A DNA stretch of 64,000 bases from an uncultured Ignavibacteriota bacterium. GTDB lineage: Bacteria > Bacteroidota > Ignavibacteria > UBA10030 > UBA8401. Shown here piece after piece: positions 35,874 through 47,300 of the stretch. Every line of letters begins with the position of its first letter. The stretch's first letter is position 1. The DNA is taken from positions 186,001 to 250,000 of the forward strand of contig CAISDA010000006.1 of assembly GCA_903884005.1 (NCBI GenBank), given 5' to 3'. The notes below the pieces were generated by a model. The model was not told the DNA's origin, did no database searches, and saw only the letters and a program-made list of their open reading frames with translations. The position numbers and the translations under genes are program-made.

Positions 35874-38800
35874 TTATTTCACCACTGCAATTTTAATGAT
35901 CGTGCTGCTTGTCTCGCCGTCCGATGTGGCTTCGAGTTGAGCGAAATAGATGCCGCTCTGCACACCGGACACATCCCAGATCACTTCGTTATCGGTGTGC
36001 GCGGTTCCGCTCCCGTTCAATGTCGAGACGAGTTCTCCCGCCATCGTGAAGATCTTGATGGTCACCGATGCCTGCTTGCCCACGTAATACCGGATATGCG
36101 TAATTTTTTCGTACGTCGGATTCGGCCAGTTGTACGCCAGCGCCTTCGGCAGGAGCTCGTCCGATTTCTGCACTCCACTGACGTCCGAGGCGAAATAATT
36201 CGTATGATACGCGTCTCCCAGATAATTCGTCCACGGGTATGTGGGGAGCCCGAGCAGGCCGTCCGTGTTCCAGACGTAGACGGACGAATCGCTCGAGGCG
36301 CCGATAAGATAGTGCGACGACATTGTCAGTGACGACACGATGCCGCCTGTCTGCAGGGGAAATCCTGCGACCAATTTCCCGTCGGTGTCGTATGCGTAAA
36401 TGTGTCCCTTGGTGCTGCCGAAACAGACGACGTTTTTTTTGCTGATCACCGATCCGGCAACGATCGGACTTCCGGACACGCCTCCGCCATCGAGTGTCTT
36501 GAGCGGGAAATTCTCGATGAGGGCGCCCGTTGCGTTATAGGCATACACGCCCTTGTCTGTGCCCACGAGAATGTCCACGCGGCCGTCGCGATTCACATCG
36601 GACAGCGCCAGCGACGCGTTTACATTCGCAGGTACCGTCCAGCTGCCCAGTGTTTGCAGCGATGGTGAATTGATCGGCGATGATGAATAGATCGTCACCG
36701 TGTTGTTGCTATAGAGCGCTGCAAGCTGCGTTCCCTGGTCCTGGACCTTGAATGACGACATTGCGAGCAAAGAGGTTCCGGCCCAACCTGTTTTCGCGCC
36801 GCCCTTCGTCTCGGCGAGCGAATCGTTCGTCGCCGCGAACCACCCCGGATTGGCGTTGGCAAGGAACCGGATCGGCGTTCTGAAGACAGCGCTTGTGCTG
36901 ATGCCGCTGGTGTTCATTTCGGCGACACTTCCGCTCTCTGTGCCGGCGGTTATCGATCGCAGATTGAGCCCCCCTGATTCGGTTCGGGAATAGACCGGTG
37001 TTGAAATTTTGGCGCCCGCATTAAATGACCGTTCAAGCTGGCCGGTCCCGTTGGCACGGCATGAATACAGGAGAACGGTGCTATCCTTAATGGCTGCGAG
37101 AAACGACTGACCTGCCGTAGTGAATTTGCCGGTGATCATCGGCTGTATTGTGCCGCCTGTCGATGCGAAGAGGCCGGCCGGATTGCCGGGAAATGCCGCG
37201 AGCGTGTTTTGGAGAGCGTAGATGGCATCGCCCGATGTATAGATGACCTCTTCCGTACCGTCGGCATTGATGTCCGCAAGCAGAGGCGCATCGTTGTTGC
37301 TCATTTTGACCGTCGGGCGCTTGATTGTCGTCTTCAACTGCGGACCGCCGTCGTTGGCGACAACGTCGAATGTCATCACAGCGGCGCTGGCGCTGAAATT
37401 GTTGATGGTGATGTGCGATTTCGCCAGCGTGTTGCTGAGCGAATTGGGATGCGTGGTTTCGGAAAATACATTCTGATACATGGGATTGTTATCCTTGTTC
37501 ACATTCTCAAGGAACCAATAATCCAACGGCGACCCATCCTCACTGCCGCTGCCCGCGTCGAGGAAGCCGTAACTCTGACCGATGTCCTGCGACCCGTCAG
37601 CCTCTTCGAGGTCCACGCCCCGCCGGGCCGGATCCGCATTGATCGTGTTGGAGGCGAGGTTCTGGTCTATCACTGTTCCATCGATGTGCCAGATGAGAAT
37701 ACCGCCGTGATAATTATTCTTGTCGTTGATCAGTCCTGGAAGGCTCCAGTCGAAATCATCCACGTCCACGACCGTGCCGTAGATCGAATCGACACTCGAC
37801 GAATTGAAATGCGTATCGTCGGACGTGTATGTTTTGGTGAACTGTGTGCGGTTCCACCGGATGGTGAGTGTCTGCCCGTCCTTATTCTTGTCGCGCTGCC
37901 GGTTTTCGAGCAAAAAATATTCCTCGGCGCTGATCGGAATTTTCACGACCGAATCGCCGCCGGCCGTCAATCGCATGGTGGCGCGTGTTGCACCGGCCGG
38001 AATGGTGACGGCATCGGCCCATCCGAGATATGCGCGCTCCCACGCCGACGGTGCGGGTGGAAACAATCCGAAGTAGCTGAAGATCGATTGCCCATCCATG
38101 AGACCGAAGCGGCCGATGGCCGTTCCGCCTGTGCGCGTATCGAACAGGTCGGGAAGCCCGAGGGCGCTGGCGATGTTTGCGACAACGAGCCCGTTGATGC
38201 TCAGCTGCAAGAGGTAATCGCTTCCGCTGCCGGAGATCATGCGGTTTTCGGTCTCGGGAAGGACGACCGAATTCGTCACCGAGAAATTATTTTTCAGTTT
38301 CACGCCGGTATACGACGAGCCGAGCAATTTTTGCAGGCTCGGGAGATTGAAATAGAGCGACGGAATGTCGTACGGCGTCAGGTCCAGATTCACCGAGCCC
38401 GACAGATTAACGTCCTTTCCCGGCCCGGCATGGAAGATGACGAAGAGGTCGTACTGTTGAAACGGAAAACCTGGATTGAGCGAGTCTGCTGCGTGCCACG
38501 CGTCGGCGATGAGATTCGTCAGCGGCACATTGACAACGTCGCTGTTCGCCGTGGTGCGCTTCACGGGCGCGTACGCCTGCACTTTATTCTGGAGCGTGAT
38601 CACCTTCCCCAGCACCGTCGAGGCGATGGGCTGACGGCCGCCCGAGACCTTGCGGAAATAATTTTTTGCGAAGAGAAAATGATCGGCGAAGTATGCCGAA
38701 TCGCGGGGCGGAGCGTCGATGATCCTCTGCGCGGTGTTCGTGAGGTCGAATTGGCCGTTCCCGGTGCTGTTCGGGTCCGCATCCGTCTGGAACTGCACCA

Positions 38801-38942
38801 TGATCGCCAGGATCCTGAGCGTGTCGCGAACGGCCGCGAGCCGTGTCGGAACCAATCCGGTGATGGAATGCGACAGCGTGAGCGGCGTACCGCCGAGCGC
38901 AATCACCGAACAGAGTGCCAGGACGCAGAGGATTTTTTTCAT
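35874..38942 (-). CDS. M6 protease-like protein lacking the zinc site, with FG-GAP-like repeats and T9SS sorting domain
   Basis: A 1022-residue exported protein. After the signal peptide, residues of about 40-400 resemble M6 (immune inhibitor A-type) peptidases, including LGLPDLFDT, IGRFGLMDG and AYLGWADAV. The position of the HExxH motif reads Ala255-Asn-Ile-Ala-Ser259, so all zinc and catalytic residues are missing. The middle (570-880) carries FG-GAP-like units (SDVNRDGRVDILVGTDKGVY). The last 85 residues are a type A T9SS C-terminal domain (NWPNPTYEKITHIRYYV ... GIYFAQL). It lies directly downstream of porV; probably a secreted, non-catalytic surface protein. Confidence 0.85.
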   Translation of the reverse strand: MKKILCVLALCSVIALGGTPLTLSHSITGLVPTRLAAVRDTLRILAIMVQFQTDADPNSTGNGQFDLTNTAQRIIDAPPRDSAYFADHFLFAKNYFRKVSGGRQPIASTVLGKVITLQNKVQAYAPVKRTTANSDVVNVPLTNLIADAWHAADSLNPGFPFQQYDLFVIFHAGPGKDVNLSGSVNLDLTPYDIPSLYFNLPSLQKLLGSSYTGVKLKNNFSVTNSVVLPETENRMISGSGSDYLLQLSINGLVVANIASALGLPDLFDTRTGGTAIGRFGLMDGQSIFSYFGLFPPAPSAWERAYLGWADAVTIPAGATRATMRLTAGGDSVVKIPISAEEYFLLENRQRDKNKDGQTLTIRWNRTQFTKTYTSDDTHFNSSSVDSIYGTVVDVDDFDWSLPGLINDKNNYHGGILIWHIDGTVIDQNLASNTINADPARRGVDLEEADGSQDIGQSYGFLDAGSGSEDGSPLDYWFLENVNKDNNPMYQNVFSETTHPNSLSNTLAKSHITINNFSASAAVMTFDVVANDGGPQLKTTIKRPTVKMSNNDAPLLADINADGTEEVIYTSGDAIYALQNTLAAFPGNPAGLFASTGGTIQPMITGKFTTAGQSFLAAIKDSTVLLYSCRANGTGQLERSFNAGAKISTPVYSRTESGGLNLRSITAGTESGSVAEMNTSGISTSAVFRTPIRFLANANPGWFAATNDSLAETKGGAKTGWAGTSLLAMSSFKVQDQGTQLAALYSNNTVTIYSSSPINSPSLQTLGSWTVPANVNASLALSDVNRDGRVDILVGTDKGVYAYNATGALIENFPLKTLDGGGVSGSPIVAGSVISKKNVVCFGSTKGHIYAYDTDGKLVAGFPLQTGGIVSSLTMSSHYLIGASSDSSVYVWNTDGLLGLPTYPWTNYLGDAYHTNYFASDVSGVQKSDELLPKALAYNWPNPTYEKITHIRYYVGKQASVTIKIFTMAGELVSTLNGSGTAHTDNEVIWDVSGVQSGIYFAQLEATSDGETSSTIIKIAVVK

Positions 38943-39028: not shown

Positions 39029-40132
39029 TTACTTTGCGCCCCACAACACCAGGAGCGTGAAGCGTAACGTGTCGGACAGCGGGCTGTTCTCGTCCTTCGC
39101 CGAGATGTAGCTGAAATCGAAGCCGTAGATGTCGTATCGAATGCCGGCGCCGAATGTGAGGAAATTACGATTGCCGAAATTGGGATCTTCAAAATAGTAT
39201 CCGAGGCGGAGCGACACCCACTCGTTGTACGAATATTCCATGCCCACCGATTTATTGATCGATTTAAGGACATTGCTGAAACTGGGTCCCGTGAACGTTG
39301 TGAGGAGCGACTTCGGCAGCGGATCGGAAACGCCGGTCGAATCCTTATACACCATGAGCTTGGCGAAATCCGCTACGATTGTAAAGCGGTTGTATTCGTC
39401 CTTATACGGCACGAACGCGAATCCGAGTCGAAGCTGTGTCGGCAGCGGATCGGCCTGTGCGGCGTCGATGTAGACAACCTTCGGTCCAAGATTCGAGAGA
39501 TTCAGACCCATGCTGAAATGATCTCCGACGTCGATGTCGGAAAACGGCAGCATGAGATGTTTCGGCTTGTACATGGCCGCGATGTCGCCGCTGACGTTAT
39601 ACGCAACGCCGTCCCCTCTTTCATTCGCCGTGCCGATGGGAGACAAACGCGAATTGATGAAGCGAAGATTGACGCCGAGGCCCCAATCTTCGGAGACCTT
39701 CAGGCCGACACCGGCCGTGGCCGCAACTTCAAACGCCTTGAATCGGCCGATCTCTTCGGGCCCGGTTTCGGCGGTCTGTATGAACGTGCCGAGATTCAGA
39801 TACGTGACGCTTGCGCCGACCGTACCGAAATCCTCGATGCTCGTCTTAAAGTTGAGATATTCGTAGAACAGGTCAGACAAATGGAATTGGGGGAGCCAGT
39901 TCGCATGCGAAATGCTCACTTCATTTCCCTGTTGGAACGCGAGGCCGGCCGGATTCCAATAGATCGCCGACGCGTCGTCCGCAAGACCGGTGCCCGATTC
40001 GCCCATGCCGCTGGCGCGCGAATTCGGGGAGATCAGCAGAAACGGCACTGCCGTATTTCCCTGCGCATGTACCGAGTCGGAGACGAACATGAACCCGGTC
40101 AAGACGACAATTCCAACGATTAATTTTCTCAT
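39029..40132 (-). CDS. porV: PorV (LptO): T9SS outer-membrane shuttle protein
   Basis: A 367-residue FadL-like barrel with a signal peptide (LIVGIVVLTGFMFVSDSVHAQ, shown in part) and the family hallmark FLLISPNSRASGMGESGTG followed by SAIYWNPAGLAF. In known T9SS, PorV binds the C-terminal domain of cargo at SprA and carries it to the PorU sortase. Its place between porU and a sorting-domain protein supports this. It ends in a strand with a hydrophobic terminus. A PorQ-type paralogue is the alternative, but length and operon favour PorV. Confidence 0.88.
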   Translation of the reverse strand: MRKLIVGIVVLTGFMFVSDSVHAQGNTAVPFLLISPNSRASGMGESGTGLADDASAIYWNPAGLAFQQGNEVSISHANWLPQFHLSDLFYEYLNFKTSIEDFGTVGASVTYLNLGTFIQTAETGPEEIGRFKAFEVAATAGVGLKVSEDWGLGVNLRFINSRLSPIGTANERGDGVAYNVSGDIAAMYKPKHLMLPFSDIDVGDHFSMGLNLSNLGPKVVYIDAAQADPLPTQLRLGFAFVPYKDEYNRFTIVADFAKLMVYKDSTGVSDPLPKSLLTTFTGPSFSNVLKSINKSVGMEYSYNEWVSLRLGYYFEDPNFGNRNFLTFGAGIRYDIYGFDFSYISAKDENSPLSDTLRFTLLVLWGAK

Positions 40133-40197: not shown

Positions 40198-43100
40198 TTA
40201 TTTCATCACTGCAAGCTTGCCCAGCGCTTCGCTCGAAAATTTTCCGTCCGTTGTGGTGGCGATGATCTTATAAAAATACACTCCGTTGCCGAGCGCGTCG
40301 CCCTCGTTGTCCCTGCACTCCCATGGTATCTGCACGAACCGGTCGGCCACCGCGTAGCGGTCGATCTGCGTGATCAGACGGCCGGCCACCGAATATATTT
40401 TAATTCGCACATCCACCGGCGACGTCTGGTTGTGCTGAAAGGTGAATGTGGTTGCGCGGCTCGCGGGATTCGGAAGATTGTACACATTCACCATGGACAA
40501 CCCGTCGCCCGATGCAACGACGAACGGCACATCGGCGGTTGAAGAATTATTATAGACATCCCACGCCTTCACGAGTATGGAGTGCGTGCCCGGATCCAGT
40601 GTTGCCATCTGATAGGCGACGGTGCCTTCCTGATAACTGTCCTTCTTGCTCTTGTAATACCCGGTAAGGTCGATGCTCTTCGGATTGTTGTCCACCCACG
40701 CTTCGATCCTGTGGCCGATGCCGGTGCCGGCCGAATTGATGCCGCTTGAGTCGGCGAGCGCAACGATGAGCTCGGGCTGATCGCCGACCAGGTCGCCCGG
40801 ATGGAACGAGGGCGAATCGAAATAAATGGACAGCGACGGTCCCTGCGTGTCAACGGTCGTGATGCGGGATGTTCCTCCGACAAAAAAATTATTCGTCTGT
40901 CCGCGGCCATCGGTTGTGCCCGATGTGAAATACACCGAGATGCGTCCGTTCTGATTGTCGTACGAGATATCTTTGGGAACAATGAACGACGCTTCCAGTT
41001 TTCCGTTGACGATGGAGTTCTCTCCCTTATAGAGCACGGCTCCGGGCTGAAGATACGAATACACATAGGGAAGAAATTCCGCGACCGGCCGGTCGCGATT
41101 GGCGTCGAACACCGTCACGAGCGCCGTTCCGTTGATTGTCTGATTGATGCTCATGTTCGGGTTCCGGACGGCGCCTTTGATCGTCACTTTTTGCAGTGCG
41201 CTCAGCGTGTCTGCCGTTGCGGACACGGTGGCGATGCTGTTGATCGAATCGATCGTCATCGCGAGCCGGGGGATCGCCAGGCGCAGCGTCGGGTCTCCCA
41301 GAAGATGATATTTTTCTTTGTTTTTGGGTGCGTCACTGAGTGCTGGATCGTTCTTCGTCCACAGGTATGCATCGCCCAGGCGCGGTATCGCGTCGAACGG
41401 ATTCGAGGAAAGCAAATGACCGTAGAATGCGTTATTCAATGCCGAATTGGGGCCGGCGTACACCGCGCGCACTGCGCTGATCACACCAATCGCGCCGCCC
41501 TGTGTGTTCTTCATCATCTCTTCAGCGGAACTCTGCACATCGGTCGCATCGAACCGTCCCCAATCGCACGTGGCCGCAACGACGAATGTGAGCCTGGTGC
41601 TATTGAAAAATTGTGACTTCGTATCGTCGAGCGACAAGATGCTTTCATGCGCCCACACCTTGGGATTGCCGTGGCCGGTGAAATTGAGTATCACGGTCCC
41701 ACGGTTCACCTGGTCCAGAATAGCCTGGCGCGCATCCGGTTTGCGGCGGCCCTGCGGGGCCATCACCAGCGGATAGTCTGCGATATAGATCTTTTTCACC
41801 TCGAATAAGGACGGCGTAAAACTGTTGGCCAGCAATTCGGCAGATTCCGTATGGTAATACTCCGTGTTGCTGTCTGTTGACCATTCGTCGTCGGCCACGA
41901 TCGTGATCGTGTTCTTCCATTGATCCTGGGCAGGATTCACTTCGTAGCCAATGATGCGATCGACCATGAAGCGGGCCTCATCGGCAGTGCGCACGCACAG
42001 GCGTCCATACGCGAGCGAAACGCTTGTGGGCGATGTGGTATCGATGCGGGCGAAAAAATCGTCCATGCAATAGGAATCAATTTTATCGTTCGATTCCGGG
42101 GTTTCGTACGTCGGCACCCATCCCTTGTCGATTCCCGCAAGCCCTTTGTAATCGAAGCTGGCATCGCCGAAGAAGAGCACATAGCGCGGCGCGACGTCCC
42201 ACCGCTGAGAGGCGTAGAGTAGGAAATTGCGGATCGCCGCCGGATCGGGCATGCCGTTGCCGAACTCGTTATAGATCGTATCGACTTCGACGACCATTGT
42301 GCGCAGGTTGTTGCCGCCCGTGAGCTGCTCTTTGTGCGTCTTGAGGCGCTGGCCCTCGGCGGCGAAATCATGGTGCGTGATGATGATGAAGTCGGCGCCG
42401 GACGCAGTTCCGTGAAGATTCGTCGGCGGCAGCTTCACCGCGGACTTGGGGGTCAGATAGGCGGACGCGGCTCCGATCCAATATTCCTTCACGGCGCCCG
42501 CAACAAGATTGTCGCGGAAACGGAACGAGCCCAGTTGCTGCTGCAGCTGCAGGTCGATCTTTTTCACATTGTTCACATCGGTGACGTCGTACCCCGTCAC
42601 CACGTTCGTGGAAAAGCCGGACACCGGATATTCGACCGCGCCTGCCCTGTCGGGCGATGTGAAGCGCAGCTGGTCCGAGGCTGCAACGAGCTGCTGCTGA
42701 TAGAGGATCTCGAGCCAGTTGATCCACCCTACTGCGTCGATGCTGTTGGCAACGAATGACAACCGCACGGTGCTGCGATCATCGGTCAGCGCCGGAACGA
42801 CGCTCGCTTCACCCGACGCATTATTGGCAAATTTGCCTTCCGAACTGCCGATCTCTGACGCAGTCATCGAGGCGATATCGGCTTGCGCTACGCGCACGCC
42901 GGACTCGTCGATCGTGAACGAGGACGTGGACGTCCCCTGCGCATATAAATCGTACCTGTATGTGACACGCGAGCCGGGCACATAGCCGGTCAATTTATTG
43001 GTCACCACGCGCGATAAAAATTTTTCGCTCATCGGCGCTCCGACCCACACCTGGCCCGACTGGTTGAAATTAATTTTGTCCTCGTCGAAAAATATTTTGC

Positions 43101-44217
43101 CGACGCCCGTCGTCACACTCACAGCGGCGGACGAAGGCGACGGCATCGCAGGCATTTCTTTGGCGCTGCCAGTTGCGATCTGCAGGAGATAATAATTGCT
43201 CGCGGTGAACGGATTGATCACATGGGAAAACGATTGCGACGAGGGGTCGTATGCCCATCCGTTCGCGCCTTTGCCGTAGAAGAGGATGTAATCATCGGTG
43301 TCGAACTTGCCGTTCGAATTTTGGTCGACGTAGTTCAGCGCACACTGCGAGAGATCGGCGTCCTTCGGCGCATGCACATCGACCGATAACGGCGCGCCGC
43401 TGCCGCCGAAAATCTTCACGTCCCGGATCAAGGATAACGATGCCGGGTCGACGCCCAGGGAGCGGAGGTATGTCGCGTCGATCTTGTACATGCCGTCGTC
43501 CGTGACTTCGAGCTTGAACCATTGCCCCGTTGCGCGGACACTGTTGAAGGCCGGCAGTTTTGCAAGCGATGCCGTGCCTGAGAACCATGAGCGGGCGGCT
43601 TCGTAATTGAACACGGCTGTTCTGGCCCACGAATCCTCTCCGGCGGCCGCATGCCGTGCGTCGGGCGCGCCATAGGTTACGCGTACAACCATTCGTGTGC
43701 ATTTCTTCAGCGTATGAGTGGATGCCTGATATTGGACCGGATACATTTTGAGGTAGCCGACGACCCATCCCCTGATCGTCATCGTATTCTCAAGCGAGAC
43801 GGCCGAGGCGGGATAAAGATCGGTAGAGAAAGAAAAATCGGACATATAGCGGATACCGGTCGGATTTTTTTTTGTGGGGGCGCTCACAAACGGCACGGGC
43901 GCCTGATTCACGCCGGCCACAGTTTCATAGTCGGCGCTGATCACTTCGGCCACCGATCCGCGTGTGCCGCGAAGGGCGAGCGGCAGTGTGATGAAGCGCA
44001 TGTCCGGCGTGCCCGGCTTCCCTTCGTCCATTGCCGCTGTGCGGAATGTGAGGAGCTGGTAGCGATCGTTTCCTGCCGCTATGGTCCGCAGTGCGTCGTA
44101 CTTCGGCGTGAACTCGAGCGTCACCGAACGGTCGGTCGACTCGATCATGCGAACATCGAGCCCGCCTGCGCGAACACCTGCACTGAAAACGGCAATGAAA
44201 AAAAAGATACGTTTCAT
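40198..44217 (-). CDS. porU: PorU: T9SS sortase (gingipain-fold C25 cysteine peptidase)
   Basis: A 1339-residue exported protein. A signal peptide (MKRIFFFIAVFSAGVRAG) precedes beta-rich N-terminal domains. The C25 peptidase domain has the catalytic pair His849 (NFTGHGNPKVW) and Cys884 (AATCDWGRFD). Ig-like domains and a C-terminal sorting-type domain (NLPNPASRATTFTF ... NGVYFYKI) follow. PorU cleaves the C-terminal domain of cargo and attaches the protein to anionic lipopolysaccharide on the cell surface. It is somewhat longer than P. gingivalis PorU (about 1160). It heads a five-gene minus-strand block and has a structured leader. Confidence 0.92.
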   Translation of the reverse strand: MKRIFFFIAVFSAGVRAGGLDVRMIESTDRSVTLEFTPKYDALRTIAAGNDRYQLLTFRTAAMDEGKPGTPDMRFITLPLALRGTRGSVAEVISADYETVAGVNQAPVPFVSAPTKKNPTGIRYMSDFSFSTDLYPASAVSLENTMTIRGWVVGYLKMYPVQYQASTHTLKKCTRMVVRVTYGAPDARHAAAGEDSWARTAVFNYEAARSWFSGTASLAKLPAFNSVRATGQWFKLEVTDDGMYKIDATYLRSLGVDPASLSLIRDVKIFGGSGAPLSVDVHAPKDADLSQCALNYVDQNSNGKFDTDDYILFYGKGANGWAYDPSSQSFSHVINPFTASNYYLLQIATGSAKEMPAMPSPSSAAVSVTTGVGKIFFDEDKINFNQSGQVWVGAPMSEKFLSRVVTNKLTGYVPGSRVTYRYDLYAQGTSTSSFTIDESGVRVAQADIASMTASEIGSSEGKFANNASGEASVVPALTDDRSTVRLSFVANSIDAVGWINWLEILYQQQLVAASDQLRFTSPDRAGAVEYPVSGFSTNVVTGYDVTDVNNVKKIDLQLQQQLGSFRFRDNLVAGAVKEYWIGAASAYLTPKSAVKLPPTNLHGTASGADFIIITHHDFAAEGQRLKTHKEQLTGGNNLRTMVVEVDTIYNEFGNGMPDPAAIRNFLLYASQRWDVAPRYVLFFGDASFDYKGLAGIDKGWVPTYETPESNDKIDSYCMDDFFARIDTTSPTSVSLAYGRLCVRTADEARFMVDRIIGYEVNPAQDQWKNTITIVADDEWSTDSNTEYYHTESAELLANSFTPSLFEVKKIYIADYPLVMAPQGRRKPDARQAILDQVNRGTVILNFTGHGNPKVWAHESILSLDDTKSQFFNSTRLTFVVAATCDWGRFDATDVQSSAEEMMKNTQGGAIGVISAVRAVYAGPNSALNNAFYGHLLSSNPFDAIPRLGDAYLWTKNDPALSDAPKNKEKYHLLGDPTLRLAIPRLAMTIDSINSIATVSATADTLSALQKVTIKGAVRNPNMSINQTINGTALVTVFDANRDRPVAEFLPYVYSYLQPGAVLYKGENSIVNGKLEASFIVPKDISYDNQNGRISVYFTSGTTDGRGQTNNFFVGGTSRITTVDTQGPSLSIYFDSPSFHPGDLVGDQPELIVALADSSGINSAGTGIGHRIEAWVDNNPKSIDLTGYYKSKKDSYQEGTVAYQMATLDPGTHSILVKAWDVYNNSSTADVPFVVASGDGLSMVNVYNLPNPASRATTFTFQHNQTSPVDVRIKIYSVAGRLITQIDRYAVADRFVQIPWECRDNEGDALGNGVYFYKIIATTTDGKFSSEALGKLAVMK

Positions 44218-44225
44218 AGGATGGC

Positions 44226-44270
44226 AAAAAAAAACCGAACGTTAGGGAGTAACCCCCAGTAACGTTCGGT
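44226..44270 (-). terminator. Intrinsic-terminator hairpin in the porU leader (possible attenuator)
   Basis: On the minus strand ACCGAACGTTA (44260-44270) pairs perfectly with TAACGTTCGGT (44234-44244) around a loop that can add GGG/CCC pairs. A run of eight or nine T follows, ending 8 bases before the porU ATG. No minus-strand gene lies upstream within reach, so it cannot simply end a neighbouring transcript. Confidence 0.75.
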
Positions 44271-44399
44271 ATAAAAACAAAGCACGCGCATACGAAACGT
44301 TAAAGGTGTTAGAGCCGAGAAAGACTGTTTGTGTTGAATAACCCTTTAACAATAAAGCCGATATGCGTTGCTCCTTGTAATAATAATTTTAACTTCACA

Positions 44400-44428
44400 A
44401 ATATAGAAAACCTTCTCCATCATGTCAA
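44400..44428 (-). promoter_or_regulatory. porU promoter
   Basis: On the minus strand TTGACA (44423-44428), exactly 17 bases, then TATATT (44400-44405) extended to TATATTTG, which fits both sigma-70 -35/-10 boxes and the Bacteroidota TAnnTTTG -7 box. Transcription would begin near 44391, giving a leader of about 170 bases before the porU ATG. Confidence 0.75.
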
Positions 44429-44480: not shown

Positions 44481-44578
44481 TAAACATAAAAGAAGAACAG
44501 GGTGACAAACTGACTCGGGTAGCTTCGACCGTCGTAATCCCCCCAATCCTTCTGTTGTTCCTCAACAGGGAGTTTTGT

Positions 44579-44944
44579 ATGAGTAAAACCAAATATCTGA
44601 CACAGCACTGCGTATCGTGCAACCGTGATGCGAAAATGGAGATCCGTCTGGTAGAAGGAGCGGATTCTCAGGTATGGTACCGGTGCACCCGCTGCCATCA
44701 CAGCATGATGGTTGACCGTTCGCTGCAATCGGCTGAACCGGCCGCCAAGCCAACACGCGATTCATGCATTGCCTACGAGCCCGCCAACAAATACGATGTC
44801 GGCGTGTCGATCTATCATACCGACTGGGATGATATGGGCATGGTGACGTCGAAAGAACGGACATCAAGCGGCGGCAATGCAATATGGGTCTCGTTCGAAA
44901 AGAACGGCTCGCGACGACTAATTGAAAATTTGCAAGAAGATTAA
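44579..44944 (+). CDS. Small Zn-ribbon protein with CarD/UvrD-C-like beta domain
   Basis: A 121-residue protein. Residues of about 10-45 hold two Cys pairs (HCVSCNRD and YRCTRCHHS), a typical zinc ribbon. The C-terminal part (YDVGVSIYHTDWDDMGMV, then IWVSFEKNGSRRLIENL) reads like the small beta-barrel of CarD-like and UvrD C-terminal domains that contact RNA polymerase. The start at 44579 is set by AGGGAG seven bases upstream. It stands immediately before rpsU on the same strand. A nucleic-acid or polymerase role is inferred, not shown. Confidence 0.7.
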   Translation: MSKTKYLTQHCVSCNRDAKMEIRLVEGADSQVWYRCTRCHHSMMVDRSLQSAEPAAKPTRDSCIAYEPANKYDVGVSIYHTDWDDMGMVTSKERTSSGGNAIWVSFEKNGSRRLIENLQED

Positions 44945-45270: not shown

Positions 45271-46665
45271 TTACAATTCAATATTTAATTTTCGCTGCTG
45301 CTTTATTTGCTCATCACGTTTCAATTGCAGCTGTTTCTGCTGCTGCCGCTGTTGTTCGATCCGCTCCTCCTGAGACCCGATCACCGCGTCGAGATCGATC
45401 TTTTTGTCCCGGTTCAACAATCGCCAATCGCCGGGCACGGGCTTTTGCTGCCCTGCTTTCGTCCGGGCAACCGGATGCTGCCGCGGCTGTGGTGCTTCTT
45501 CGTCGGAAGTTTCAAACACCGGGCCCGCGTTTTCGTCGAACTGGATCGTGAGCACCTGATCGTTGCCGAAGACGCGAAGCGGGCTCCGTTCAGAAAATAG
45601 TTTTTGCTCGATGCTCATCCGCCTCTCGGCCAGCTGCCGCATCCTGTCTCCCATTGCGCGGAATTTCGGCGCGGCGGTCTGCTGCACGCTCGCACTCTGC
45701 GCCATGAACCGTTCGACGTCCGAGGGCATCTCGGCAAAACCGACCGAATCGCCTGTGATCACGACATACCGGTTCGAGCGCGGCAGCGCGGCGATCCGCT
45801 TGAATATTTTGTCGGGCGGCGCCGACGGCGCATCATTCTTCGCGACGCTGTAGAGCGCGCCGTTCTCTGCGAGTATTTTTTGGAATCGCACTCGCTGCAC
45901 CGGCTCGAGGCTGGCGGCGATCGTGGACACCATCATACGGTTCAGTTGCGCAATGTCGGCGTGTATCGCGATCTCATCCCGTTCGCCGACGAGCACGGCA
46001 TTCTGCATCTTCATTTTTCCGTAATTCAAGATCGAATCCACAACATCGTGCTGAGCCGGTGTTGCCCCGATCGCCGCATAAAATTGAGGAAGCGAGATCT
46101 TTTTCTTCGCCGGGGTGTGTCCGAGTTCCATCGTATAGCCGCCGGTTTCGCCTTTGGCAACCTGCAGCGTATTGGTCGAATCGAGGTCCAAATTGCCGAA
46201 GAGCGCAAACTGCAGCACCTTTTCTTTGTCGATCGATGAGAGCAGCGGCATAATCGCCCCCTTCATCAATCCGCCGGCGTAGACCTGTGCAACCTGCTCC
46301 TTTTTTTCCTGAACGAAGGTGTTGAGCGAATCGCCTTCCTTCATCAACAAAATGGCAAGCACTGCCGCCGTCCCGGCCGTAATGAGACCGGCAGAGAGCC
46401 ACCATGGCTTCTTCCACGCATCGGAGGACCGAACCCGCCGCTCATCGAGCGCGCCCGAAAGCTGCAGCCAGAACCACGAATTCTCCGGAGCACGGGGAGC
46501 GGTCTTGAGCCCCTTCTGTATCGCCCGAAGCTGGGACAGTTCCCTCGCCGCCTCAGGGTGAACGGCGACGTATTCCTCCAGCTGCCTCGATTCGGCATCG
46601 TCCAGCATGCCGTCGATGTAGAGCGACAGTTTTTCCGTGACTATTTTTGGTGCAAGGTCTTTCAT
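45271..46665 (-). CDS. Putative transmembrane anti-sigma factor
   Basis: A 464-residue single-pass protein encoded next to the ECF sigma gene. Residues 1-50 (EKLSLYIDGMLDDAESRQLEEY) resemble the cytoplasmic anti-sigma helix bundle but lack the HxxxCxxC zinc motif. A membrane span lies near residues 92-112 (AGLITAGTAAVLAILLM). The periplasmic part includes a helical segment (LEPVQRVRFQKIL) recalling Spy/CpxP sensors, and ends in a Gln/Lys/Arg-rich coiled coil (EERIEQQRQQQKQLQLKR). It probably sequesters the sigma factor and senses envelope stress. ATG 46665 is preferred to 46692. Confidence 0.75.
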   Translation of the reverse strand: MKDLAPKIVTEKLSLYIDGMLDDAESRQLEEYVAVHPEAARELSQLRAIQKGLKTAPRAPENSWFWLQLSGALDERRVRSSDAWKKPWWLSAGLITAGTAAVLAILLMKEGDSLNTFVQEKKEQVAQVYAGGLMKGAIMPLLSSIDKEKVLQFALFGNLDLDSTNTLQVAKGETGGYTMELGHTPAKKKISLPQFYAAIGATPAQHDVVDSILNYGKMKMQNAVLVGERDEIAIHADIAQLNRMMVSTIAASLEPVQRVRFQKILAENGALYSVAKNDAPSAPPDKIFKRIAALPRSNRYVVITGDSVGFAEMPSDVERFMAQSASVQQTAAPKFRAMGDRMRQLAERRMSIEQKLFSERSPLRVFGNDQVLTIQFDENAGPVFETSDEEAPQPRQHPVARTKAGQQKPVPGDWRLLNRDKKIDLDAVIGSQEERIEQQRQQQKQLQLKRDEQIKQQRKLNIEL

Positions 46666-46697
46666 ATGTGTCAACAACCCGATAGTAATCAAACGAT

Positions 46698-47300
46698 TTA
46701 TTCCGCCTCCATCATCGGGGTCAGTATGGTGCGCAGCATGGCCCGCGCACGGCTTAACCGCGATTTCACTGTCCCCACTTCACATTCCAACGCTTCTGCA
46801 ATCTCGTCGTACGACAAGCCTTCGATGTCTTTGAGTATCACCGGAAGCCGAAACTTCTCCGGAAGCCTGTCCAGCGCCTGGGCGACCATGTCCGCGACTC
46901 CCATATCGGTCGGCGCCGGCGTCTGCAATGCGGGATGGTGCTCTTTCTGCTCCGTCATGAGGTCCAGCGAAAAAAACCGCTTTACCTTGCGCTTGCGCAT
47001 CTCATCCCGGGCTTTGTTCACGGTGATCCGATAGAGCCACGTGTAAAACGACGATTCGAATCTGAAATTCGGCAGGGCTTCATACGCCTTAATGAAGACT
47101 TCCTGCGCCATATCATCGACCATATCCACATCCCGGAAGATCGAAAAGACCACATTGCGCACGCGTTCCCTGTGGCGGTCCACAAGCACACGATACGTGC
47201 TTCGGTCGCCTCCCTGGAACATCGTGATCAACGCTTCATCGCTCTTTGCTTCAAGCGGAATCGTCTCTTCGGAGATCTGAAATATTGCCGTTGAATTCAT
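46698..47300 (-). CDS. ECF RNA polymerase sigma factor, RpoE-like
   Basis: A 200-residue sigma-70 family factor. Region 2 contains DMVDDMAQEVFIKAYEAL and the -10 recognition helix SSFYTWLYRITVNKARD. Region 4 has LPEKFRLPVILKDIEGLSYD and the helix-turn-helix IAEALECEVGTVKSRLSRAR. It is followed 32 bases later by the putative anti-sigma gene, the standard pairing. A RpoE-type promoter upstream suggests it activates its own gene. In T9SS bacteria an ECF factor (SigP) works with PorX; whether this is the equivalent cannot be told from sequence. Confidence 0.93.
   Translation of the reverse strand: MNSTAIFQISEETIPLEAKSDEALITMFQGGDRSTYRVLVDRHRERVRNVVFSIFRDVDMVDDMAQEVFIKAYEALPNFRFESSFYTWLYRITVNKARDEMRKRKVKRFFSLDLMTEQKEHHPALQTPAPTDMGVADMVAQALDRLPEKFRLPVILKDIEGLSYDEIAEALECEVGTVKSRLSRARAMLRTILTPMMEAE

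Follow-up and report, generated by a model that had tools for sequence, protein, structure and literature searches.

A conserved structured leader before the type IX secretion sortase gene porU, very probably a transcription attenuator

The window, by which we mean the whole stretch of 64,000 nucleotides analysed here, carries genes of the type IX secretion system (T9SS) on its minus strand. In many Bacteroidota, protein secretion is completed by the enzyme PorU. The gene for this sortase (Peptidase_C25; 40198..44217, minus strand; NCBIfam NF033707, E 7e-291; Pfam PF01364) begins with an ATG at 44217 and is followed on the same strand by porV (39029..40132; NF033710, E 5e-76) and then by a third gene, for a T9SS-dependent M6-like inactivated metalloprotease (35874..38942; NF052323, E 3e-248, with a T9SS sorting domain), which is likely to be a T9SS cargo. 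The 5' neighbour of the porU leader, at 44555-44944, lies on the opposite strand. Two genes away from porU is an ECF-type sigma factor gene (46698-47300, minus strand), with a probable zinc-finger anti-sigma gene beside it (45271-46692, minus strand). T9SS genes are under ECF factors elsewhere; no link is drawn here between this pair (45271-47300) and the porU leader.

The leader is about 170 nt long, and all of its elements are on the minus strand. Its promoter, TTGACA-N17-TATATT(TG) at 44398..44428, scored 11/12 in a promoter scan and comprises a -35 TTGACA (44428-44423) and, after 17 nucleotides, TATATTTG (44405-44398). The promoter alone proves nothing, since it is the top one of 9 matches in 12 kb, a total that equals the shuffled expectation of 8.1; promoter- and terminator-consensus counts in the region are at chance level and have no weight on their own. 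The MFE fold places a rod-like hairpin (44378-44277), made of two helices that we call P1 and P2, on the 5' side of a terminator. P1 joins a 5' strand with conserved GGAG and UAU[A/C]G (ACAAGGAGCAACGCAUAUCGG, 44358..44378) to a 3' strand (UCGUAUGCGCGUGCUUUGU, 44277..44295), and both are supported by the fold and by the partner-swap test described below, the 3' strand also by comparison with relatives. P2 joins strand 1, with the conserved core UUGUUAAAGG (44342..44352; fold, comparison and swap test), to strand 2, CCUUUAAC (44299..44306; fold and comparison), across an apical loop (44307..44341) that varies between 24 and 87 nt in the leaders of relatives. The core pairing of P2 is UUGUUAAAGGUU/AACCUUURAC.

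The terminator has an 11-bp stem formed by a 5' arm, strand 3 (ACCGAACGUUA / ACCGAACGTTA, 44260..44270), and a 3' arm, strand 4 (UAACGUUCGGU / TAACGTTCGGT, 44234..44244), both identified by hairpin folding and by the terminator swap test. Its U-tract is T8 in the sequence, or T9 including a paired one (44226..44233), has equivalents in 69 leaders, and ends at 44226, 8 nt before the porU ATG. Competing with these helices is a pairing of about 44311-44289 with 44273-44250, that is, of an antiterminator 5' strand (UAACACCUUUAACGUUUCGUAUG, 44289..44311; duplex of -16.9 kcal/mol here and co-evolution over genera) with a 3' strand consisting of the terminator 5' arm and loop (UAUACCGAACGUUACUGGGGGUUA, 44250..44273; comparison, duplex and swap test). 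Strand 2 is thus common to P2 and to the antiterminator.

Most of what the original prediction had said about this leader held. The TTGACA-N17-TATATTTG promoter on the minus strand with its leader of some 170 nt is where it had been placed, the 11-bp terminator with eight or nine U ending 8 nt before porU was correct to the base, and, since the neighbouring gene at 44555-44944 is on the other strand, no minus-strand gene directly upstream needs terminating. The segment 44302-44292 (TAACGTTTCGT), which had been predicted to pair with the terminator 5' arm, can do so; it is the end of the P2 3' strand plus the start of the P1 3' strand, and the real pairing is longer than had been claimed. The description was partly incomplete, having missed the long rod-like hairpin at 44378-44277.

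Folding energies, all computed for 37°C, set the structures apart. The terminator hairpin has a ΔG of -21.0 kcal/mol, compared to -9.1 ± 2.6 for shuffled sequence (z -4.65), and the whole leader reaches -47.0 against -33.1 (z -3.60). With the 5' strand and the terminator 3' arm blocked, the antiterminator fold of the window leader has only -19.3, compared to -47.0 for the OFF fold and -26.0 for P1/P2 alone. Because the OFF fold is far more stable than the antiterminator at equilibrium, switching would need active help or kinetics. Shuffling single leaders proved a weaker test of the competing pairing than partner swapping, and it is weak for many leaders, the window's included: 4 of 100 shuffles gave a best duplex as good as that of the window leader, and over 69 single leaders the median z was -1.7, with 27 below -2.

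Comparison with relatives shows that the leader is kept before porU, and almost nowhere else, across the whole order and in some relatives beyond it, which is not a matter of chance. The group sits among uncultured Bacteroidota near Ignavibacteria. By DNA similarity alone, most genomes of the window's family have a match just upstream of porU. We built a covariance model, R2, from 25 diverse leaders and searched 98 genomes of the order with a cut-off of E ≤ 0.01; E-values of such models are rough, and copies were sought by search only. Exactly one match was found in 79 of the 98 genomes (best E 1e-15). In 71 of these it stands immediately before PorU and in the same orientation, and tblastn placed a further 6 before PorU where contigs split the gene, which brings the total to 77 of 79; the remaining two (G034 and G041) are at contig ends. 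Among the 19 genomes in which R2 matched nothing there are fragmentary ones as well as others, such as G014, whose leader can be seen but has diverged. Outside the order, R2 searches in a sample of genomes of the class found single copies in families f10, f18, f58, f59 and f61. When 30 loci were picked by the RNA model alone, 27 had a PorU match by tblastn within the next 3 kb or less, the weakest being L292 (E 0.1); two of the other three end with the contig, and the last, in G630, is a weak RNA match that is probably false. At one locus (L277, in G487) a different gene intervenes, and porU lies about 1.9 kb beyond the leader, an arrangement one would expect of a leader that is part of the operon.

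Only one genome departs from the rule of one copy per genome seen with both models, R1 and R2. In G006 (L232, contig C1, about 405-580) a second P1/P2 copy, reading AGAAGGAGCAAUCGACC...UUGUUAAGGGUU...GCCCUAACAA...GGUUGCUUUUUUAUUGUACC, has its own promoter-like sequence, lacks a terminator and does not precede porU; the next long frame begins about 250 nt further on.

The porU upstream regions of six families of the order share one leader plan: TTGACA/T-N17(19)-TATATT, GGAG, UAU[A/C]G, UUGUUAAAGGUU, a variable loop, AACCUUURAC, the P1 3' strand, RCCGAAYG...CGUUCGGYUUUUU and the ATG. Promoter and core occur together in 69 of the 79 compiled regions. In 67 leaders the pattern TTGAC[A/C/T]-N15-20-TAnnTT precedes the P2 core by 35-77 nt; it was matched 70 times on the forward strand of this DNA, against 3 times on the reverse strand. 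Across 39 genera the P2 core UAAAGGUU is 87-100% conserved at each position, and within the RNA conservation is highest in the 5' strand, with 24.8 bits over 28 positions versus 17.0 for its partner strand in equal windows. In 69 leaders the terminator has a median ΔG of -16.1 kcal/mol; the exceptions in the window's family are the porU leaders of G002 and G007, which keep P1/P2 with no recognisable terminator. Between the end of the stem and the ATG there are usually 5-20 nt (at most 20 nt to the first ATG in 48 of 56), which leaves no room for a second promoter.

All four helices co-evolve. In every species of the window's family, the terminator 5' arm and loop have their partner in the P2 3' strand with its flanks, and both sides of this pairing change in sequence. 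The partners are, for example, UGACACCUUUAACGUUUAUAC with GUACCGAACGUGAAGGUGUC in G016, UUCCAAACCUUUGACGUUGAAUACG with GUACCGAACGUCAUUGGUGUGGAC in G004, and AGACAAGCCUUUUUCAAAUGCGGU with GCCGAAUGAGAAAGCUUGUC in family f6; in f2 the P2 5' strand is repeated in the terminator loop (AUGUUAAAGGU). We exchanged pairing partners between species, using one representative from each of 39 genera and assuming no alignment. For the antiterminator, own partners summed to -658 kcal/mol, compared to -583 (sd 15) for swaps within families (z -5.2; none of 20000 permutations as good) and -500 (sd 18) for swaps over all families (between-family z -8.6). With the apical loop or the P1 5' strand as control partner, z was -0.5 and +1.2, respectively. 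The same test gave z within families and overall of -6.7 and -11.6 for P1, -3.8 and -5.7 for P2, and -8.8 and -13.0 for the terminator, with three controls at -1.5, +1.5 and -1.8 within families.

A referee might ask how much of this signal is common descent, and such permutation tests do leave some shared ancestry. For one control pairing z is only -1.5 within families yet falls to -3.5 between them; the between-family values are therefore partly shared ancestry, and for this reason we rely on the within-family ones. The advantage of own over swapped antiterminator partners is clear in families f1, f3 and f6; in f2 and f5, for which there are few or related sequences, own partners were no better than swapped ones. 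Across the 39 genera, P1, P2, terminator and antiterminator all co-evolve, and most control pairings do not. Conservation and covariation in relatives had been set beforehand as the deciding check on the original prediction, and both were found. Its claim that mutually exclusive structures put porU under an RNA switch or a leader-binding protein is supported by this comparison, while read-through and the signal remain inference.

Two groups of leaders depart from the plan in ways that bear on how it may work. The 12 loci of f10 and f18 were used descriptively only. In f18 (L272-L274, L278, L289, L290 and L297) the apical loop contains AAUUUCGGUUUUAU or something near it, a copy of the terminator 3' arm, and could pair with the terminator 5' arm in place of P2. 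Judging from sequence alone, it is likely that the function has been kept there while the antiterminator partner moved. In Ignavibacteria sensu stricto (L139-L161) the rod and the terminator are absent from the porU leaders, which have a short 5' motif, AGGAG-N-AUAGAgAUUUUUGCUAC, about 60-110 nt before porU; it follows a TTGAC-type promoter and resembles the 5' strand (GGAG...AUAGAgAUUUUUGCUAC). A pattern search for a regulon of this motif in 8 genomes returned only 4 matches, little beyond porU leaders: three fit the porU-leader sequence of their own genome (G477, G481 and one of those in G482), and the fourth is in G482 as well. In most leaders of f1, P1 ends its 3' strand in GCUUUUUU (44277-44283 in the window), and it is possible that the f1 rod itself serves as a first, weaker terminator, making tandem terminators.

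Sequence and comparison establish how the leader is built, that it is linked to porU across the order, and that its four helices co-evolve. On this basis the element is very likely a cis-acting transcription attenuator of the porU operon with 1:2, 2:3 and 3:4 pairings, although termination and read-through are inferred in the absence of transcript data. An intrinsic terminator stands in the 5' leader, with a U-tract and usually at most 20 nt before the ATG, and a mutually exclusive, co-evolving antiterminator is formed by the P2 3' strand with the terminator 5' arm and loop. Transcription would start about 6-8 nt after TATATTTG, a site inferred from the promoter, and the nascent RNA would fold first into the rod, with P2 pairing strand 1 (UUGUUAAAGG) to strand 2 (CCUUUAAC). 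Since the rod would leave strand 3 unpaired, this strand could join strand 4 in an intrinsic terminator immediately ahead of the porU ATG, and porU-porV would be OFF by default, as inferred from folding energies. Were strand 1 held off strand 2, the latter and its flanks would pair with strand 3 to form the antiterminator, leaving strand 4 single and letting RNA polymerase read into porU. In this scheme the ON state requires something that keeps the conserved 5' strand away from the P2 3' strand, and it is the energies (OFF -47.0, antiterminator -19.3, P1/P2 alone -26.0) that make OFF the default and ON the state needing help.

What provides that help can only be inferred. No factor has been identified, and we would neither bet on nor against a protein or other factor that binds the conserved 5' strand; a small molecule is possible, and kinetic, temperature or trans-RNA control, taken jointly, seems unlikely. 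We favour a factor recognising the 5' strand over a metabolite because conservation is highest in this strand, because a stretch resembling it persists in Ignavibacteria sensu stricto, where the terminator is absent, and because an element found before porU only makes a metabolite ligand less likely.

The alternative closest to ours is a riboswitch in the narrow sense, in which P1/P2, with a conserved internal loop and the UAAAGGUU core, would be an aptamer for a small molecule or ion that chooses between terminator and antiterminator. This remains possible: the conserved core, variable distal loops and expression platform give the usual look of a riboswitch, the aptamer-like conserved structure with variable peripheral loops that one would require is there, and no known class is matched. 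However, there is one copy per genome, before porU only, whereas a metabolite riboswitch usually precedes several operons that are related in metabolism. No metabolite is evident for PorU, a surface sortase, and its gene context suggests no ligand. Moreover, the ligand-free rod is already more stable than the antiterminator, a poor fit for an OFF switch stabilised by ligand. It is unlikely that we are looking at a separate gene for a trans-acting sRNA (promoter, structured RNA and terminator) that stands before porU by chance, with porU expressed otherwise or by leakage. The order of promoter, RNA and terminator is the anatomy of an sRNA gene, the extra P1/P2 copy of G006 lacks the porU terminator, and two porU leaders keep P1/P2 without one. 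Against it, the linkage to porU persists across families while upstream genes change, the terminator is usually no more than 20 nt from the ATG, an sRNA has no need of a co-evolving antiterminator, and there is neither a 6S match in the genome nor an Rfam match.

Two further readings seem very unlikely. In peptide-coupled attenuation of the trp/his type, translation of a leader peptide would decide which hairpin forms; this would fit the 1:2/2:3/3:4 geometry, as well as an AGGAG close to the 5' end and, in the window leader, an open frame of 36 codons from a TTG. But start, frame, length and codon run are not conserved across genera, and an ATG frame of at least 8 codons is missing from 15 of 39 leaders; since no frame is conserved over the 39 genera, we disfavour this type of attenuator. 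The element could also be an ordinary constitutive terminator, a leftover or an insulator, with incidental complementarity. Terminators are common, and raw counts of terminator- and promoter-like sequences in the region are those of chance, yet this does not account for a sequence and position kept across the order right before the start codon, or for an antiterminator that co-evolves.

No Rfam 15 family matches the window leader or 16 further loci, nearly all of them with related leaders. These searches gave no T-box match, which speaks against a T-box leader, and 6S RNA is rejected as well, RF00013 being unmatched in the whole genome and the leader matching no 6S family. As the original prediction had supposed, the literature searched (mostly without subscription journals) held nothing relevant on a porU leader, attenuator or riboswitch. 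Nor did it hold any case of T9SS control at the RNA level, the regulation found there acting at promoters (PorXY-SigP, ECF sigma). In P. gingivalis the T9SS is regulated at promoters via PorXY-SigP (PMC4800418, PMC8265659). In Flavobacterium psychrophilum an ECF-type motif has been proposed upstream of T9SS genes, with PorU among the listed promoters, and PorU is induced by high osmolarity (PMC9723704). In both cases, as proposed here, it is transcription of por genes that is controlled, in Flavobacterium also that of PorU, but control acts on initiation, while the porU leader would act on elongation from a housekeeping-type promoter.

Among known leaders, trp-type attenuators have the same four ordered segments, exclusive pairings, an intrinsic terminator just before the first gene and their own promoter; the porU leader differs in having no conserved peptide, a very long, sequence-conserved first hairpin and a secretion sortase as target. 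Orphan riboswitch candidates from comparative genomics, including SAM-Chlorobi and Chlorobi-RRM (PMC2864571), resemble it as conserved structured 5' leaders with an expression platform and unknown ligand. In contrast to them, the porU leader is strictly linked to porU and is not in Rfam 15; neither porU nor gingipain/C25 genes are mentioned in the text of PMC2864571. RfaH, LoaP and UpxY, NusG-paralogous antitermination factors that are recruited at the leader, act processively without a base-paired antiterminator. As in our proposal, such a factor recognises a conserved sequence or structure of the 5' leader and permits read-through; the porU leader differs in its co-evolving antiterminator and in that no factor is identified. 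The mechanism, leader attenuation, is thus likely to be of a known kind, with an RNA family and a target that are new as far as we have checked.

It is tempting to speculate further that this RNA belongs to a new regulatory class devoted to a single gene of a secretion system, and that, via a factor binding its conserved 5' strand, it monitors the condition of the type IX pathway or the cell envelope and so controls sortase synthesis at elongation. We consider this bolder reading more apt to fail than to hold. The porU leader is in any case an orphan RNA family with a covariance model, open to a search for its ligand or protein. At about 170 nt it can be transcribed in vitro and thus offers a directly testable handle, with compensatory mutations predicted. 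An RNA present in single copy has stayed in front of porU over an order and in parts of its class, which suggests that control is exerted at the sortase step.
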